A stretch of DNA of 40,432 nt from a virus, in the IMG/VR virus record IMGVR_UViG_3300048433_001073, positions 1 through 40,432 of that record; one strand, 5' to 3'. Below, in pieces: positions 10,941 through 40,397 of the stretch (the stretch's first letter is position 1; every line of letters starts with the position of its first letter). The translations under genes and the position numbers were made by a program. The notes beneath the pieces were generated by a model. It was not told where the DNA came from, did no database searches, and saw only the letters and a list, made by a program, of their open reading frames with translations.

Positions 10941-11915
10941 GTGAAAACTCTTTCGTTAACAAATTTAAGCAGAATTACTAAATTAGATTTTAGCAAAACA
11001 TCCGATGTAGATTCAGTTGGAGGAAGAATATCTTTAACTAAACTAGATAATTTAGAAGAATTCAAAGCTAGGAAGAATGGTATTATTCAATTAACGTGTT
11101 CTGATGCTAACACTAAACTTTTCGAAATAGATGTTACAGATAATGCTATAACAGATATGCCAAATATCGCAGCTTTGCCGGTGCTCAATACTTTTCGCGC
11201 TACTCGAAATCAAATAACTGCAACAATACCAACATCATTAGCTTCAAGTATTCAACGGTTTAATATAGAAAATAATAATTTTACTGGTCAAATTACAGAT
11301 ATTTCTGGTAATACAAACCTAATAGCGTTTGTTATTGGTCAAAATGCAATAACTGGAAATTTTCCTAATCTATCTGCTCTTACTAAGTTAGAACATTTGC
11401 GGGTAAATAAATGCAACTTAACTGGTCCTGTAAATACCAATATTAATAATCTTCGCAAGCTTAAGACGTTTGTGATTAATCATAATAGTTTTACTGGAAA
11501 CTTGCCTTGGTTGGGAAATGCAACAATCATGGTAACGTTACATGTGCATAGCAATAATTTGATAGGTTCTCTTCCAAACTTCTCAAAGATGGATGATCAC
11601 TTTGATCCTGCAAATAATGGATTAAAATCTGTAAATTGCGCAAATAATAATTTTACTGGTTATGGCGGAACTTCTATTCCTGCTACTCATTTAAGGGTTT
11701 TTAATGTTCACGATAATGACTTAAGCGAAAGCGCAATAAACGCTATACTTAGCCAGCTCGTAGCGAGTGGTAAAACATTTACACAACAAGAGGTAGATGA
11801 CGATGAAGGAGGAGTATTAAAATTAGAAGGTGGAACCAATAGCCCTCCAACAGGACAAGGTATAACAGATGTTGCTACGCTTCGAGCTGGAAATTGGACC
11901 GTAACACATAATTAA
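10941..11915 (+). CDS. Leucine-rich-repeat protein in fibre cluster
   Basis: A 324-aa protein. The frame is closed by a TAA at 10926 and GTG 10941 is the first usable start; no good Shine-Dalgarno is visible. Residues about 10-270 are leucine-rich repeats of roughly 20-24 residues with NNFTGQI, NAITGNFPNL, NSFTGNLPWLGN and NNLIGSLPNF turns. This is the LxxLxxLxLxxNxLxGxxP style of plant and receptor-like LRRs. The tail (GGTNSPPTGQGITDVATL...WTVTHN) is a recurrent terminal module in phage and bacterial LRR proteins. No signal peptide or membrane segment is seen. Its place between small fibre genes suggests a virion-borne receptor-binding or decoration protein, but an intracellular role is not excluded. 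Confidence 0.75.
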   Translation: MKTLSLTNLSRITKLDFSKTSDVDSVGGRISLTKLDNLEEFKARKNGIIQLTCSDANTKLFEIDVTDNAITDMPNIAALPVLNTFRATRNQITATIPTSLASSIQRFNIENNNFTGQITDISGNTNLIAFVIGQNAITGNFPNLSALTKLEHLRVNKCNLTGPVNTNINNLRKLKTFVINHNSFTGNLPWLGNATIMVTLHVHSNNLIGSLPNFSKMDDHFDPANNGLKSVNCANNNFTGYGGTSIPATHLRVFNVHDNDLSESAINAILSQLVASGKTFTQQEVDDDEGGVLKLEGGTNSPPTGQGITDVATLRAGNWTVTHN

Positions 11916-33208: not shown

Positions 33209-33811
33209 ATGAAAGAAGAAGAACCAGCTAAAAAACCAGCTAAGAGAGTACGTCGTGCCAAAGAGCACTATGTCAATAATAAAGAATTTTCCCAAGCAGT
33301 CGTCGATTATGTTAACAGCGTTAATGAATCTCGCACAGCAGGAAAAGAAGAACCAGTAATTACTGATTATATCGGTAGATGCTTTTTAAAGATAAGTGAC
33401 GGTCTATCCCATAAACCAAACTTTATTGGATACACATATAGAGAAGAAATGGTAATGGATGCAGTAGAAAATTGTATCAAAGCTATTATGAATTATAACG
33501 TTGAGAAAGCAACTCGCACAGGATTACCTAACGCGTTTGCATACTTTACTCAAATATCATATTATGCCTTTCTTCGAAGGATCGCAAAAGAAAAGAAACA
33601 ACAAGATATTAAAGAACGATACATCGCCTATGCAGGTGCAGATGCTTTCGCTGACTTTGATTCTGAAATGCCTACTGCGCAATCAGATAATATTATTGGC
33701 TCTATTCGTGCAAAGAATCAATCAATTAAAAATAAAGATTTAGCTCTTAAAGAGTTTAAAAAGAAAAGTAAGAAGACAGACAAACCAAGCGGTATAGAAC
33801 TTTTCTTTTAG
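33209..33811 (+). CDS. gp55: Late transcription sigma factor gp55
   Basis: A 200-aa protein (T4: 185). Shared landmarks: YVNNKEFSQAVVDYVN at residues 21-36, ISDGLSHKPNFIGYTYREEM at about 62-81, the region-2-like helix DAVENCIKAIMNYN, and FAYFTQISYYAFLRRIAKEKK at about 110-130. The last residues GIELFF are a hydrophobic-acidic tail like the clamp-binding C-terminus of T4 gp55. It directs RNA polymerase to the TATAAATA late promoters found throughout this window. The N-terminus carries a Lys/Arg-rich extension (KKPAKRVRRAK) not needed for the core fold. Confidence 0.93.
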   Translation: MKEEEPAKKPAKRVRRAKEHYVNNKEFSQAVVDYVNSVNESRTAGKEEPVITDYIGRCFLKISDGLSHKPNFIGYTYREEMVMDAVENCIKAIMNYNVEKATRTGLPNAFAYFTQISYYAFLRRIAKEKKQQDIKERYIAYAGADAFADFDSEMPTAQSDNIIGSIRAKNQSIKNKDLALKEFKKKSKKTDKPSGIELFF

Positions 33812-33820
33812 TATTACATT

Positions 33821-34882
33821 ATGAGCAAACTTGCTGTGTTAAATGACACCCACTTTGGTGTTAAGAATGGGTCGGCTATATTCATGGACTACGCCTCGAA
33901 GTTCTTTGATGAGGTATTCTTTCCATATTGTGTAGAGAATGATATAAAGCAAATTATTCACTTAGGTGATTTCTTTGACCATCGTAAATACGTTAACTAT
34001 AAGGTGTTAAAGCATTCTTATGATTGCTTCGTATCAAAGCTGTATGAGCATGATATGACAATGGATATTATTCCAGGTAATCATGACGTATATTGGAAGA
34101 ATACAAATACCCTCAATTCGCTTGAGACAATACTTAAACAATACTCTGATCGCATTAATATCCACATGCATCCAAATGATAAGGAGTTTGATGGATTAAG
34201 CATTGGCTTCCTTCCATGGATAACACAAGATAATCATGAAGAGTGCATGGACTTTATAGCGAAATCTAAATCGTCTATCATCGCTTCTCATCTCGAGTTA
34301 CAAGGATTTGAAATGGGTAAAGGTTTGCCTGTTGCTTCTCATGGATTAAATAGAAGTTTATTCTCTCGTTATGAAATGGTTCTATCAGGTCATTACCATA
34401 CTCGATCATGTCAAAACAATATACACTATCTTGGAACACAGATGGAATTAACATGGTCTGATGCTGGAGATCCTAAGTACTTTTATACTCTCGACACTCA
34501 ATCGCGTGAGTTAACACCTATAAGAAATAAGCATGTACTTTTTCGCAGAATAAGGTATAATGATACAGAGACAGAAGTAATAACAAAAAAAGACGTACAA
34601 GGAACATACGTTAAAATAGTAGTAGTTGCAAAGAAAGACTTATATGAATTCGATAAATTTATTGATCGCATCCAATCTTATGAACCATTTGAAATTAAGA
34701 TTGTTGAAACCTTCGACGAATACGCAGGAGAAAATGTCAACGACGATACAGTATCTACACTTGACACACCTACATTACTTAATACTTATGTCGATTCTAT
34801 AGAAACAGATCTTAAGACTGACAGATTAAAAACAATGTTACAAGAACTATTCGTAGAAGCACAGCAGCTTGAATCTATATAA
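33821..34882 (+). CDS. gp47: Recombination nuclease subunit gp47 (Mre11-like)
   Basis: A 353-aa protein (T4: 339). Metallophosphoesterase motifs in order: NDTHFG (Asp9, His11), GDFFDHR (Asp50), PGNHD (86-89), SHLE (His157) and GHYH (190-193). All metal ligands are present. With gp46 it forms the Mre11/Rad50-type complex that resects DNA ends for recombination. The stop overlaps the gp46 start (TAATG). A C-terminal alpha/beta region contacts gp46 in homologues. Confidence 0.95.
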   Translation: MSKLAVLNDTHFGVKNGSAIFMDYASKFFDEVFFPYCVENDIKQIIHLGDFFDHRKYVNYKVLKHSYDCFVSKLYEHDMTMDIIPGNHDVYWKNTNTLNSLETILKQYSDRINIHMHPNDKEFDGLSIGFLPWITQDNHEECMDFIAKSKSSIIASHLELQGFEMGKGLPVASHGLNRSLFSRYEMVLSGHYHTRSCQNNIHYLGTQMELTWSDAGDPKYFYTLDTQSRELTPIRNKHVLFRRIRYNDTETEVITKKDVQGTYVKIVVVAKKDLYEFDKFIDRIQSYEPFEIKIVETFDEYAGENVNDDTVSTLDTPTLLNTYVDSIETDLKTDRLKTMLQELFVEAQQLESI

Positions 34883-36609
34883 TGCTTATATTTGAATCTA
34901 TATCATACCAGAATTTTCTTTCAACTGGTAATACACCTACTGTTATACCATTAAATAAAGACTCTGCAACTCTTGTTGTTGGATCGAATGGTGCTGGTAA
35001 GTCTACGATGCTAGATGCCATCTCGTATGCATTGTTTGGTAAGCCTCATCGTAACATTAATAGACCACAACTTATTAATAGCATCAATAATAAAAAGTTA
35101 TTGGTTGAAGTAAAGTTCTCGATTGGTCCAAATAAGTATCGTGTTGTACGTGGTATGAAGCCAAACATATTTGAGATATATCATAACGATAATCTTCTTA
35201 ATCAAGAGTCACATAGTCGTGATTACCAAAAGGTATTAGAAACAAATATACTTAAGTTAAATCATAAATCATTTCATCAAGTTGTTGTTTTAGGTTCATC
35301 TAACTTTATTCCATTTATGCAGCTTCCTTCGCACCAACGAAGAAACGTTATTGAAGATCTACTTGACATTGGTGTGTTTACGAAGATGAATATGCTTGTC
35401 AAAGATAGATACTCAAAGACAAAGAGCGATATACTTGACACAGATCAGCAGCTTAATATTATTAAAGAACAGATTGCTCTACAGAAGAAGCATATCAACG
35501 ATCTAAAGAATATCGATATTCAGCAATCTACAAAGGCTCTTAAGCAGATCGATACGATGCAGACCGAGGTTGATCTGCTTGAATCACGTAATGAGGAACT
35601 ACAAGAAAAATATAATTCAGTCGAACCAGAATGTTTGAGCTGTAAAAATGCTGCAACTGATAAACAATCGTCACTTAACGAATATAAGATTCGAATTAGC
35701 ACGAATATTAAAAAGGTTGTAAAGGATGCAAAGTTCTTTGAGACAAATGATTGTTGTCCAGTATGTGATCAATTGATTAGCGAAGAGTTTAAGGTTACCA
35801 AAAAGAAAGAATCACAAGAGAAGGCACAAGAACTTAGTGAAGGTCTTAAGACGCTCGAAGATAAGATTACTGATATTAATTCAAAGGTTGAAGCAGCAAA
35901 CAATGAGTATGCAGCAATTCAAGATATATTGTCAGATATTAGATCTAATCAGAATCTTATCAATAACTTGCATAAGCAAATGAATGATTTGAAGAAACAG
36001 AATAATTCAACAAATGAATTAACTGATACCAAAGAAGCTGAGTCAGATTTAGACGATAGGAAAGTTCAATACGATGAGATGCTAGATAACAAATCTTCTC
36101 AGCTCGAGACTCGTACATATTACGAAGCTATAGGTGAGATGCTTAAAGATACTGGTATCAAAACAAAGATTATTCGTCAGTACCTTCCAGTGATGAATAA
36201 GTTGATTAACAAGTATCTTAATATCCTTGACTTCTTTGTTAAGTTTGACTTAGATGAATCATTTAACGAAACGATTAAGTCTCGTCATAGAGATGAGTTT
36301 AGTTATGCTTCGTTCTCAGAAGGTGAAAAGACTCGAATTGATTTGGCACTTCTGTTCTCATGGAGGCAGATTGCTAAGATGAAAAATTCAGCGAACACCA
36401 ACCTTCTTATTTTAGACGAGACATTTGACTCATCTCTCGACGTGGATGGTGTAGACAATCTTCTCAAGATTCTATATAGTCTAAAGGAAGATAGCAATGT
36501 CTTTATTATATCTCATAAGAAAGATGTGCTCGATGGCAAATTCCCAAGTAGAATCGAGTTTGAGAAAGCAAACAATTTTAGCAGAGTGGCAAAGAGTGAA
36601 TTACTATAA
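34882..36609 (+). CDS. gp46: Recombination nuclease subunit gp46 (Rad50-like ATPase)
   Basis: A 575-aa SMC/Rad50-type ATPase (T4: 560). Walker A GSNGAGKST at about 34-42; central coiled coils at about 180-400; zinc-hook CPVC at residues 292-295; ABC signature SFSEGEKT at 477-484; Walker B LLILDE at 508-513. A second CLSC pair is at 251-254. The protein drives DNA-end processing with gp47. A small unknown gene overlaps its 3' end. Confidence 0.95.
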   Translation: MLIFESISYQNFLSTGNTPTVIPLNKDSATLVVGSNGAGKSTMLDAISYALFGKPHRNINRPQLINSINNKKLLVEVKFSIGPNKYRVVRGMKPNIFEIYHNDNLLNQESHSRDYQKVLETNILKLNHKSFHQVVVLGSSNFIPFMQLPSHQRRNVIEDLLDIGVFTKMNMLVKDRYSKTKSDILDTDQQLNIIKEQIALQKKHINDLKNIDIQQSTKALKQIDTMQTEVDLLESRNEELQEKYNSVEPECLSCKNAATDKQSSLNEYKIRISTNIKKVVKDAKFFETNDCCPVCDQLISEEFKVTKKKESQEKAQELSEGLKTLEDKITDINSKVEAANNEYAAIQDILSDIRSNQNLINNLHKQMNDLKKQNNSTNELTDTKEAESDLDDRKVQYDEMLDNKSSQLETRTYYEAIGEMLKDTGIKTKIIRQYLPVMNKLINKYLNILDFFVKFDLDESFNETIKSRHRDEFSYASFSEGEKTRIDLALLFSWRQIAKMKNSANTNLLILDETFDSSLDVDGVDNLLKILYSLKEDSNVFIISHKKDVLDGKFPSRIEFEKANNFSRVAKSELL

Positions 36610-36854: not shown

Positions 36855-36882
36855 TGTACATATTGCTGGTTTATGGTATAAT
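36855..36882 (+). promoter_or_regulatory. Sigma70-like promoter of the zincin/vWA gene
   Basis: TGTACA (36855-36860), 16-nt spacer ending TTATGG, TATAAT (36877-36882), 16 nt before ATG 36899. It is closely similar to the promoter at 39183-39210 (TGTACA, 16 nt, TATGG, TATAAT). Confidence 0.75.
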
Positions 36883-36898
36883 AGATCCATAGTTAATT

Positions 36899-39112
36899 AT
36901 GGAAAGTATATTAGATCTTCAAAATCAGTCGTCTCTGGCCAAGCTATTGGCTACTGAGAACATTACTGTTACTCACAACAAGCGTCTATCGACTGCTTAC
37001 TTCGACGTTAAGAATCGTGTGCTTGGTCTTCCAGTTTGGAAGGATCAAGGTAAGGTTGTATATGACATGCTTGTAGGCCACGAGGTTTCACACGCATTGT
37101 ATACACCTCATGCAGAGTTCGAAAAGTTTCTTGAAGACGAAGGTCGTTCTCACTTTGATATCCTTAACATTGTTGAAGATATTCGCATCGAGCGTTTGAT
37201 CAAACTCAAGTACGCTGGAATGCCTCGCATTTTCAATGGAGCTTACAAGAAATTGGTCGAAGGTGACTTCTTCAAGGTCGAAGGTAAGAACATTGATGAA
37301 TTGAATTTTCTCGATCGTCTCAACCTTCGTGCAAAAATTGGTCCTCACTCTGACATTCCTTTGTCTGACGAAGAGCTTGCAATTTACAACAAGTGCCTAA
37401 AGGCCGAAACATTCGAAGATGTGATTGAACTCTACCACGAGATCAAAGAATTTATTGCTGAAGAAGCCAACAAGAAAATGGAAGAAGACTCTGACGAATC
37501 TCCTTCTGACAATCAAGAAGGTGACGAAGGCATTAGCGAAGAATCTGAAGGTGATGACACTGAAGAAGATGAAGGCTTTGGTTCTACTAGTGATGGTCAA
37601 GAATCTGATGATGATTCTGACGATGGCGAAGAAGCTGAAGGTGAATCTACTGAAGGTGACGAAGGTGGTGATGAAGCATCGTCTGAAGACATTAAGTCTG
37701 ATGACGATGACGAAGAATCAGTTGGCGAATCAACTTACACTAACGGTGCTGGTGATGCTGCTGACATAGATGAAGACGATACTGTTGATGAAGAGTACAA
37801 GTCTGAAACCCTCAAATCTTTTGATGAAAATATTCAAGAAGATGAAGATCGTCACGGTGGCAGAACTGCTATTGCTATGATGCCGCTCAAAAGCACGATT
37901 GACAAGTGTGTTATTCCTTACAAAACGGTTTTAGCTGCACGTCCAAAAATCGAAGATTTGTTCACCACTGGTGCACCAAACGAATATGAACATAAGACTA
38001 CTCACAACGATCGTTACATCAAGCTAAAGAAGCTTGTAAACAAAAGAGCTTCTGTACTTGCTCGCGAGTTTGAGCGACGTAAAGCATCATACCAATACTC
38101 ACGAGCTCAAGAGTCTCGTAACGGTACCATTGATGTAAACAACTTGCACAAGTACAAGTACGATGATCAAATCTTCAGCACCACAATGCGTTTGGCTGAT
38201 GCTAAGAGTCACGGCATGATATTCTTTATCGACTACTCAGGTTCGATGGCAGGTGTTCTCAAAGATGTATTAGAGCACACACTCAATCTTATTCAGTTTT
38301 GCAAAAAGGTTGGAATTCCATTTCAAGTCTTTTCATTCACTTCACTTCATAATCAAATCCCGGAGCTTGAGCAAAACGAAAACGAGTTCGATATGTCAAA
38401 CGTCATTATCGCAGAATTGTTCTCGAGCGATATGAAAAAAGCAGAGTACGAGCAAGCGTTTAAGACAGTTGCTTATCAAATCCTCTTTTCTCAATACCGC
38501 ATTGCTGATCAGTTCACTTCGAAGTACGAACAACTTGGTGGAACACCTCTTGATCACACTTTAATCGCTGCTCACACACTCGTTAATAAATTCAACAAGA
38601 AGCATGCAGTTCAAAAAACCAATGTAGTAATACTTAGCGATGGTGATTCATACGGTTGCGTACCTCACAGTTGCGGTTTCGGCGTAAGCAAAATTACAAC
38701 CAATATTAATAGAAAGCAATATACATTCGGTCGTTATGGTTCTACTAATCGACTCACTGAAATTCTTAAGAAAGCTACTGGAGCAACTCTTATTGGTTTC
38801 TTCCTTCCAAGCGGTAGACCAGCGATAAGAACTAAAGTTCGCGAGATGGTTGGATATAATGATTCAGCGCAAAATATGAAAAAGTACAAGAAAGAAGGTT
38901 TCCTTCACGCAACCGATTGCAAAGGTTATGATTCATACTTCTTACTTCCTGACAATATCGAAATTACTGAAGACGAGTTTCACTACGATGGTGCTGAAGT
39001 CGCAAACAATCGTACAGCTCAAAGTCAACTCGCGAGATCATACGCAAAGCACAATGTTAAGAATCGCCAAAACCGCATCATTCTCAACAAGTTCGCCGAA
39101 ATGGTTGCTTAA
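36899..39112 (+). CDS. Zincin-like metallopeptidase / vWA (CobT-like) protein
   Basis: A 737-aa protein with three parts. Residues 1-180 hold the zinc-binding HExxH motif (HEVSH, 61-65, in GHEVSHALYTP), with NIVEDIRIERLIK at 90-102 supplying a candidate third Glu ligand. Residues about 183-316 are a low-complexity acidic linker rich in Asp, Glu, Gly and Ser. Residues about 320-737 are a CobT-like C-terminal region. Its vWA domain has the MIDAS motif DYSGSM (Asp445, Ser447, Ser449), GGTPLDHTL near 547 and VVILSDGDS near 580. In related T4-like phages it is called peptidase. It is paired with the AAA+ gene downstream, like vWA partners of MoxR/CobS ATPases. The substrate is unknown. Confidence 0.88.
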   Translation: MESILDLQNQSSLAKLLATENITVTHNKRLSTAYFDVKNRVLGLPVWKDQGKVVYDMLVGHEVSHALYTPHAEFEKFLEDEGRSHFDILNIVEDIRIERLIKLKYAGMPRIFNGAYKKLVEGDFFKVEGKNIDELNFLDRLNLRAKIGPHSDIPLSDEELAIYNKCLKAETFEDVIELYHEIKEFIAEEANKKMEEDSDESPSDNQEGDEGISEESEGDDTEEDEGFGSTSDGQESDDDSDDGEEAEGESTEGDEGGDEASSEDIKSDDDDEESVGESTYTNGAGDAADIDEDDTVDEEYKSETLKSFDENIQEDEDRHGGRTAIAMMPLKSTIDKCVIPYKTVLAARPKIEDLFTTGAPNEYEHKTTHNDRYIKLKKLVNKRASVLAREFERRKASYQYSRAQESRNGTIDVNNLHKYKYDDQIFSTTMRLADAKSHGMIFFIDYSGSMAGVLKDVLEHTLNLIQFCKKVGIPFQVFSFTSLHNQIPELEQNENEFDMSNVIIAELFSSDMKKAEYEQAFKTVAYQILFSQYRIADQFTSKYEQLGGTPLDHTLIAAHTLVNKFNKKHAVQKTNVVILSDGDSYGCVPHSCGFGVSKITTNINRKQYTFGRYGSTNRLTEILKKATGATLIGFFLPSGRPAIRTKVREMVGYNDSAQNMKKYKKEGFLHATDCKGYDSYFLLPDNIEITEDEFHYDGAEVANNRTAQSQLARSYAKHNVKNRQNRIILNKFAEMVA

Positions 39113-39182
39113 CATTTTTTAAATTTTGGACCTTATTATATACAAAGTGCATAAACTATTGCCTATCAGAGATATAAAAAAG

Positions 39183-39210
39183 TGTACAAATACCCCAGAT
39201 ATGGTATAAT
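39183..39210 (+). promoter_or_regulatory. Sigma70-like promoter of the CobS-like ATPase gene
   Basis: TGTACA (39183-39188), 16-nt spacer ending ATATGG, TATAAT (39205-39210), 29 nt before ATG 39240. It shares both hexamers, the spacing and the TATGG extension with the promoter at 36855-36882. TATAAATT just before the ATG (39232-39239) is one base off the late box. Confidence 0.75.
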
Positions 39211-39239
39211 ATATCTATAACAGTTAATTAGTATAAATT

Positions 39240-40397
39240 ATGAATAAAAACAAAACCCTCACAGAAGCCCTCAAATCTCGCGGGCAATTTAGTTATCGCA
39301 ATCAAGAGATTCTCGAGATTGCTCACGGTCTTGGAATTGACCACAACGATGCCTACAAGGTTATTCGTAAAATGTATAAACTCTCTCGTGGTGTTTATAC
39401 TCTTACTGGACCTTCTGCTCCAACACCTTCAGCAGAACCTGCTCCTTCGACAGCAATCGCAAACCACGTCGAACTTCGAGGTGTTGCTTCTGTCGCTAAC
39501 GATGAGATTTACGTTCCATCGGTAGATCCTACTTACATCAAGTGGGGAGAGTATAACACGATTATGAAGATCATCAAGTCGAAGCTCTTCTTCCCCGTGT
39601 ATGTCTCTGGACTTTCTGGAAATGGCAAGACCATGATGATCGAGCAAGCGTGTGCTAAGGCAAAACGCGAGTACGTTCGAGTACAGATTTCACCTGAAAC
39701 CGACGAAGATGATTTGATCGGTGGTTTTCGCCTCATCAATGGCGAGACAGTTTTCCAAAAAGGACCAATCATCAAAGCGATGGAACGTGGTTGCCTCTTA
39801 CTCATCGACGAAATCGATCGTGCTACGAACAAGATCATGTGTCTGCAAGGTGTACTTGAAGGCAATCCAGTTTTGCTCAAGAAAACTGGACAAGTGATCA
39901 CTCCTGCTGAAGGCTTCAATGTGATTGCCACAGCAAATACCAAAGGTCGTGGCTCCGACGATGGTCGATTCACCGCAGCTTCTATCATTGACGATGCATT
40001 CCTCGAACGATTCGTGTGTGCGATCGATCAAGAGTTTCCCTCACCAGTCATCGAGAAGAAAATCGTGATGGCTCACATGAGCAAGTTCGGCGTTGAAGCC
40101 GAAGAGTTTGCTGATAAGCTAATCGCTTGGTCGAACGTTATACGCAAGACCTTTGAGGCTGATGGTGTCGAAGAGATTGTCTCTACTCGTCGTCTATGCC
40201 ACATCGTTAAGACATACTCTATCTTCGAAGATCGCTCTAAAGCAATCTCGATGTGCATCAATCGCTTCGACGAAGAAACACGTACAGCGTTCCTCGACCT
40301 CTACACCAAGATTGACGAAAGCCAATTGACCGAAGACGGCGAGATCATTGAAATCGTTGAGAACGGTGGATATGATCCAGAGATTGACACTCCCTAA
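39240..40397 (+). CDS. cobS: CobS/MoxR-type AAA+ ATPase
   Basis: A 385-aa protein. Residues 1-57 look like a small helix-turn-helix or winged-helix domain (NQEILEIAHGLGIDHNDAYKV). Residues 58-75 are a Pro/Ala-rich linker. The AAA+ core follows: Walker A GLSGNGKT at 124-131, Walker B LLLIDEID at 186-193, sensor-1 Asn233 in ATANT, and arginine finger region DDAFLERF around Arg257. The overall sequence is MoxR/CobS-like. CobS is the ATPase subunit of aerobic cobaltochelatase and is, as I recall, near-universal in T4-like cyanophages. Since no cobalamin gene is seen here and the neighbour is a vWA/zincin, the substrate may be a protein. The last 35 bases of the window after it show nothing. Confidence 0.9.
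   Translation: MNKNKTLTEALKSRGQFSYRNQEILEIAHGLGIDHNDAYKVIRKMYKLSRGVYTLTGPSAPTPSAEPAPSTAIANHVELRGVASVANDEIYVPSVDPTYIKWGEYNTIMKIIKSKLFFPVYVSGLSGNGKTMMIEQACAKAKREYVRVQISPETDEDDLIGGFRLINGETVFQKGPIIKAMERGCLLLIDEIDRATNKIMCLQGVLEGNPVLLKKTGQVITPAEGFNVIATANTKGRGSDDGRFTAASIIDDAFLERFVCAIDQEFPSPVIEKKIVMAHMSKFGVEAEEFADKLIAWSNVIRKTFEADGVEEIVSTRRLCHIVKTYSIFEDRSKAISMCINRFDEETRTAFLDLYTKIDESQLTEDGEIIEIVENGGYDPEIDTP

Follow-up and report, generated by a model that had tools for sequence, protein, structure and literature searches.

What is the function of the phage gene usually called cobS, and of the metallopeptidase-like gene that lies beside it? In marine phages, cobS is often cited as an auxiliary metabolic gene and read as boosting the B12 of the host. 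Here we analyse such a gene pair in an IMG/VR virus record of 40,432 bases (IMGVR_UViG_3300048433_001073, taken whole and hereafter called the window), whose gene content is that of a T4-like myovirus contig. One gene encodes a protein with an HExxH motif, a long acidic linker and a von Willebrand factor A (vWA) domain, which we call the zincin-vWA protein, and the other encodes a CobS/MoxR AAA+ ATPase. The new evidence moves the balance away from both published readings of such pairs, virion assembly and B12. We propose that the pair is an early remodelling machine resembling NorQ-NorD (NorQD), that its peptidase arm is probably active and that it works on proteins of replication or takeover. 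We consider the chances of this statement, taken as a whole, to be even; our confidence is higher for remodelling and for the pair not being a chelatase, and lower for the target.

A gene pair that stays together

The pair follows directly after gp46, with both genes on the same strand and 127 bp between them, and the contig ends 35 bases past the ATPase gene. Residues 10-737 of the zincin-vWA protein match the phrog_459 profile (E=7e-165) and residues 83-366 of the ATPase match phrog_249 (E=3e-106), so that the two-gene observation is not due to chance. The pair belongs to the known family phrog_459/phrog_249, an ordinary gene family that is misnamed in databases. An initial annotation, made from the sequence alone, had described adjacent genes for an HExxH, acidic-linker and vWA protein and for a CobS/MoxR ATPase, and we find all of the motifs at the residue numbers it gave.

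The same annotation regarded the two genes as a genuine two-gene system, as opposed to genes occurring independently of one another in most relatives. Co-occurrence is essentially complete, even where the order is flipped: of 155 distinct vWA loci long enough to include a neighbouring gene, 154 also have the ATPase at the locus, in the order vWA-ATPase (147), ATPase-vWA (5) or divergently (2). In the remaining case the locus, L172, shares a contig with L071 and overlaps it, and on that contig the ATPase is encoded 7.7 kb downstream of the vWA gene, which gives 155/155 if the two are counted as one contig. A co-occurrence analysis of this sort had been suggested in the initial annotation, and its result bears the pairing out. 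Cyanophage record counts are identical for both genes (365/61/24). The distance correlation of the two proteins is 0.88 (partial 0.42 after gp45, gp46 and gp47), which is barely above that of neighbours and proves little. Seen from the ATPase side, L071 was rejected as an ATPase without a vWA gene, since L172 is the same contig and carries the vWA gene 7.7 kb upstream, and the short contig L074 has the ATPase with no vWA gene seen.

Conservation of the putative metallopeptidase site

In an alignment of 65 zincin-vWA sequences, in which the relatives are 31-84% identical, H61, E62, H65, D445, S447 and S449 are unchanged, barring one gapped sequence, and E98 never varies. The last three form a DxSxS motif, which together with T549 and D581, invariant too, makes up a complete metal-ion-dependent adhesion site (MIDAS) in the vWA partner. 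The window protein carries a gluzincin-type signature, that is, HExxH with a downstream conserved Glu (E98), and in the predicted model of its N-terminal domain, strands precede the two helices that carry HExxH and E98; the pre-vWA region is predicted to be long and helical. A sequence search of the PDB with the vWA profile returned acidic low-complexity matches only.

When the comparison is widened to 41 sequences, among them relatives from SSU5-like and Rhizobium phages and two from bacterial mobile elements, no more than nine columns stay invariant, and H61, E62, H65 and E98 account for four of the nine (p about 1e-6 if invariant columns were placed at random). The initial annotation had named a non-conserved HExxH as an outcome that would count against it, and the invariance of these four residues in 41 diverse sequences points the other way. 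HExxH is intact also in Vibrio phage ICP2, Gordonia phage GMA3 and halovirus HCTV-2.

A MoxR/CbbQ-type ATPase and a NorD-like partner

The ATPase matches Pfam AAA_5 (E=1.8e-19) and CbbQ_C (E=1.3e-4), both above cut-off, which together with its best folds (NorQ/CbbQ) and a predicted hairpin at residues 161-174 places it in the MoxR/CbbQ clade of AAA+ proteins with a helix-2 insert. Fold comparison ranks NorQ/CbbQ first, with Z scores of 19-24 over about 250 residues, the next AAA rows being at about 15. For the zincin-vWA protein, the NorD vWA domain ranks first, with a Z score of 16.2 over 261 residues (model residues 323-737 against NorD 358-638, the pre-vWA region included), and the Mdn1 MIDAS domain has 15.1. 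The NorQ/NorD-like design suggested in the initial annotation thus holds in the fold ranking of both proteins.

A short linker joins the complete MoxR/CbbQ-type AAA+ module to an N-terminal domain, which is predicted to form three helices and a beta hairpin (residues 3-54); the added HTH-like domain noted earlier is recovered here as a predicted winged-helix-like fold. SSU5-like ATPases (L126:5581-6813, L236:9196-10431 and L241:9444-10679) have a C2H2-like zinc finger, CKWCGKSFHxxxSHxxxGxC, in place of the T4-like winged-helix-like domain. Both domains would be compatible with a putative role in nucleic-acid tethering.

Early-type promoters and neighbouring genes

The motif TGTACA-N16-TATAAT has only two exact sites in the window, one for each gene of the pair, and a similar TTTACA-N17-TATAAT lies upstream of gp55. 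The late motif NATAAATA/TATAAATA is established in T4-like phages (PMC2984593). The window contains ten TATAAATA late-promoter sites, all on the + strand and most of them just before structural genes, a number of matches that was reached in 2/100 shuffles. Across the family, we scanned the 120 bases upstream of each gene in 148 regions per gene, with expectations taken from mononucleotide shuffles. TATAAT occurs upstream of the vWA gene in 72/148 regions (expected 21) and upstream of the ATPase gene in 99/148 (expected 22), and TATAAATA occurs upstream of neither (0/148 each), in contrast to regA (35/75). With sigma70-type motifs present and TATAAATA at zero, both genes are probably transcribed early, by the host RNA polymerase.

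Among the T4-like loci with enough flank, gp46 lies upstream of the pair in 87/95 and gp45 or gp44 downstream in 96/103. In unrelated phages, too, the pair lies near DNA polymerase III alpha, namely in SSU5-like phages (of Klebsiella, Escherichia and Salmonella) and in Pseudomonas, Rhizobium and Stenotrophomonas phages, and near primase, helicase and DNA polymerase in ICP2. This repeated placement among replication genes suggests a role in replication.

Two bacterial contigs have similar genes. On a Pelotomaculum contig, apparently a prophage (L158:5925-19499), zincin-vWA and AAA_5 genes share a module with genes for RecT, a PD-(D/E)XK nuclease and a ribonucleotide reductase that contains a TSCPD domain. 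On a Thioalkalivibrio contig (L155:7036-17196), perhaps an integrative element, a zincin-vWA gene has a DNA topoisomerase gene in its vicinity and a CbbQ-type AAA gene at a distance of about 4.5 kb.

Features of the window and related loci

The coordinates of the pair, its motifs and its upstream context are given in Table 1. The structural genes of the window were picked out by eye in the translations, and a UvsW-type helicase, gp55, gp47 and gp46 were then identified by profile. An open reading frame in the tail-gene region (10941-11915) looks by eye like a leucine-rich repeat protein.

Table 1 Positions in the window of the gene pair, its motifs and promoters, and the genes preceding it
Feature	Position	Strand	Basis
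gp55 (upstream context, outside the pair)	33209-33811	+	phrog_234 profile
SbcD/gp47 (upstream context, outside the pair)	33821-34882	+	phrog_100 profile
SbcC/gp46 (upstream context, outside the pair)	34882-36609	+	phrog_77 profile
Early-type promoter of vWA gene, TGTACA-N16-TATAAT, extended -10	36855-36882	+	window motif search, family statistics
Zincin-vWA protein, 737 aa	36899-39112	+	open reading frame and profile, phrog_459 'peptidase'
HExxH (H61 E62 V S H65), putative metallopeptidase site	37079-37093	+	invariant in 64/64 ungapped and 41/41 diverse sequences
E98 in NIVEDIRIER helix, candidate third metal ligand	37190-37192	+	invariant; model helix 86-104
Long acidic disordered linker, about residues 198-300	37490-37798	+	predicted local distance difference test score <50 at 198-296
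Pre-vWA region, aligns with NorD 'finger' region	37865-38209	+	structure alignment to NorD; hhalign to CobT over 376-594
vWA domain with MIDAS D445-Y-S447-G-S449 (38231-38245), T549, D581	38210-39109	+	invariant residues; NorD/Mdn1 MIDAS fold match
Conserved C-terminal tail NKFAEMVA (family TKFAExIA)	39086-39109	+	alignment; putative NorD C-terminus counterpart by position (PMC13036017)
Early-type promoter of ATPase gene, TGTACA-N16-TATAAT, extended -10	39183-39210	+	window motif search, family statistics
CobS/MoxR AAA+ ATPase, 385 aa	39240-40397	+	open reading frame and profile, phrog_249 'porphyrin biosynthesis'
N-terminal winged-helix-like domain, residues 1-57	39240-39410	+	predicted fold; in listed T4-like relatives; net charge median +3 (181 sequences)
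Walker A GLSGNGKT	39609-39632	+	core residues invariant
Helix-2 insert beta hairpin, NorQ H2i counterpart	39720-39761	+	strands 161-166 and 169-174; R164, L165, G168, E169, T170 invariant
Walker B core D190 E191 I192 D193 R194 (in LLLIDEID, E191)	39807-39821	+	invariant in 78/78

AAA matches in Staphylococcus and Listeria phages were dropped as wider members of the family, their neighbour being DUF7192 and not zincin-vWA. In Herelleviridae (L124:4707-6682 and L125:4740-6588), a gene annotated 'AAA family ATPase / porphyrin biosynthesis' is followed by DUF7192 without MIDAS or HExxH, possibly a further divergent AAA-partner pair. The gene pcyA sits between the two genes of the pair in Prochlorococcus phage P-SSM4 (L128:7976-8665). 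In Escherichia phage Cyrano (OV696614.1, H126), the annotation of the zincin-vWA gene reads dimethylbenzimidazole phosphoribosyltransferase, probably a result of the double meaning of the gene name cobT.

Relationship to cobaltochelatase

Under the reading that is the default in the literature (PMC8651126, PMC2984593), the two proteins would be a phage CobS-CobT pair that hijacks the CobN of the host, as favoured by the authors of one study (PMC8651126), and raises B12 for ribonucleotide reductase. The initial annotation had pointed out that no CobN is visible and that the cobalamin reading may be incomplete, and our results agree with it. The window ATPase scores 67.9 bits with the CobS equivalog model against a cut-off of 558.55, and the CobT domains PF06213 and PF11775 gave no match, either to the window protein at E up to 1 or to 51 family members at E up to 0.01. 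No CobN (PF02514) was found in the window, a 40-kb fragment, or in the 14 viral records carrying relatives. The SSU5-like phage PhiR41_1 has E. coli K-12 MG1655 as its host, and E. coli, one of 14 control genomes, has no PF02514 match. Other observations speak for the cobalamin reading: the control genomes of Synechococcus and Haloferax have a CobN-type subunit, SSU5-like relatives match the CobT Pfam domains (PF06213 at 2.6e-23, while carrying HExxH as HEVGH), and the L158 pair shares a module with a ribonucleotide reductase whose TSCPD domain is linked to the B12-dependent class.

The cellular proteins are themselves not always accompanied by CobN. Among 58 alphaproteobacterial genomes (loci L242-L266, genomes G001-G063), some of which may be incomplete, 41 have CobT and 22 have CobN, and 20 have CobT without CobN, all 20 with CobS; the control Caulobacter vibrioides also has CobS and CobT and no CobN. 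With many cellular CobS-CobT pairs lacking CobN, the name does not fix the function, and in many cases CobS-CobT cannot act as a cobaltochelatase. The cellular CobT proteins that we aligned lack HExxH in their N-terminal domain. This domain aligns with the phage zincin domain via the SSU5-like proteins, the direct profile comparison between the two being weak (probability 7%, E=0.005). Aligned to HExxH-bearing relatives and itself without the motif, CobT looks like a relative whose peptidase died. The cobalamin reading fits the pair badly, and we regard it as very improbable.

Proposed function and alternatives

We hypothesize that the AAA+ protein forms a hexamer. Finger and C-terminal tail of the vWA partner would enter the pore of this ring, and ATP hydrolysis would turn the partner; by analogy, finger and tail may do the same job as in NorD. 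While the MIDAS would hold the target, the zincin at the N-terminus, attached through the long acidic linker, would serve as another arm; this arm would clamp the target and probably also cleave it if HExxH is intact, as in the window protein. Transcription from the sigma70-type promoters would take place before that of the late structural genes, and the likely target would be either a phage component, from replication, recombination or late transcription, or host machinery that is displaced. We take the pair not to be a cobalt chelatase, and a dedicated role in virion assembly is improbable. Worded as a replication-coupled, ATP-driven remodeller-protease, with a NorQD-like ring and a live metallopeptidase in T4-like phages, SSU5-like phage-plasmids, podoviruses and haloviruses, the proposal is more tentative.

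Several points weigh against this proposal. In the fold search the vWA domain filled the match lists, so that the zincin domain received no answer of its own. In the Pfam search, no HTH model matched the N-terminal domain of the ATPase at cut-off, and the zinc-finger assignment in the SSU5-like ATPases is below the Pfam cut-off. The link to replication is an association only, and no clear replication neighbours are visible around the GMA3 and HCTV-2 pairs. The papers that we read on cyanophages gave no timing of cobS transcripts, and early promoters are compatible with an assembly role too. Finally, Pseudomonas phage nickie (SEISK) and Stenotrophomonas phage ANB28 (REVST) have lost HExxH and kept the MIDAS and the ATPase, which suggests that remodelling, and not proteolysis, is the constant function. 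Unfolding coupled to proteolysis, as the initial annotation had it, is in keeping with the intact and conserved HExxH, but proteolysis is not indispensable everywhere.

This loss leads to the possibility that the pair is purely a remodeller, in which the zincin would be a substrate-binding arm with a structural metal at HExxH and nothing would be cleaved. CobT has the same layout without HExxH and would fit such a machine. Nevertheless, all four putative ligand and catalytic residues are fully conserved over T4-like, SSU5-like, Rhizobium-phage and bacterial-element relatives, and ICP2, GMA3 and HCTV-2 have HExxH too; a scaffold would hardly seem to require this much conservation, and we find an inactive arm possible but doubtful. 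Some phage assembly chaperones are expressed early, so early-type promoters do not by themselves speak against the pair assembling the particle and processing structural proteins as a chaperone and protease. This has been proposed for the same architecture by analogy with the tail-assembly MoxR-vWA pair of ATV (PMC7824862), and T4-like cyanophages have cobS among their core genes (PMC3037559). However, none of the 148 regions for each gene has a late promoter motif, and the neighbours in several groups are replication genes and not structural genes, which makes an assembly role unlikely in our view. If the pair were a protease directed at host proteins shortly after infection, for counter-defence or host shutoff, this would agree with the early-type promoters, the ATP-driven metallopeptidase design and the broad host spread. 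The near-universal, fixed place of the pair in the T4-like replication module looks like that of a core gene and not of a variable accessory one, and the defence-system search with PADLOC gave no convincing match worth following, so that we likewise give this explanation little chance.

Evidence against the B12 reading of viral cobS comes from the pairing, the intact HExxH, relatives in hosts without CobN, the early-type promoters and the repeated location among replication genes, and the remodeller-protease proposal is an alternative, open to testing, for two core genes of marine viruses that are very abundant. If it is true, CobT would be a relative with a dead peptidase, and much of the viral 'cobS' in ocean surveys would be unrelated to vitamin B12. 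PhiR41_1 on E. coli K-12 provides a laboratory system for the pair in a host without CobN.

Comparison with known systems

The architecture is not of a new kind, as it was reported in 2021 for group 2.2 jumbo phages, which pair a MoxR ATPase with a vWA protein bearing a fused metallopeptidase at its N-terminus; the role proposed there was virion assembly (PMC7824862). The jumbo-phage pair and the T4-like cyanophage families PHROG 459 ('peptidase') and PHROG 249 ('cobS') share the domain order and the kind of partner ATPase with the pair described here. In contrast to the jumbo phages, ours is a 40-kb T4-like phage fragment, and the evidence points to early expression and replication genes, not to assembly. 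The present analysis shows in addition how large and how tight the association is, that the active site is conserved yet occasionally lost, that the promoters are of early type, and that several unrelated groups have the pair in synteny with replication genes.

Other systems resemble the pair in part. CobS-CobT also consists of adjacent genes, with a homologous ATPase (PD_CobS, E=8.6e-19) and, in CobT, the same domain order and acidic linker, the pre-vWA and vWA regions being alignable; the phage pair differs in falling below the CobS cut-off, having no CobT Pfam match, keeping HExxH intact and lacking CobN. Midasin/Rea1 shows AAA profile similarity (E=2.6e-41) and the vWA fold of its MIDAS domain, but it is one giant eukaryotic ribosome-assembly protein. 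The CbbQ of the Rubisco activase CbbQ-CbbO (6l1q) is the best single AAA fold match, with a Z score of 23.8, although no Rubisco context is seen around the phage pair.

The NorQ-NorD system, which inserts iron into nitric oxide reductase, has the AAA fold with the H2 insert, and its solved complex shows that NorD comprises an N-terminal domain, a long linker, a finger, the vWA domain and a C-terminal tail contacting the ring (PMC13036017), which is the domain order of the zincin-vWA protein. The phage system differs from it by the intact HExxH of its N-terminal domain, by the extra winged-helix-like domain of its ATPase and by having no respiratory target.

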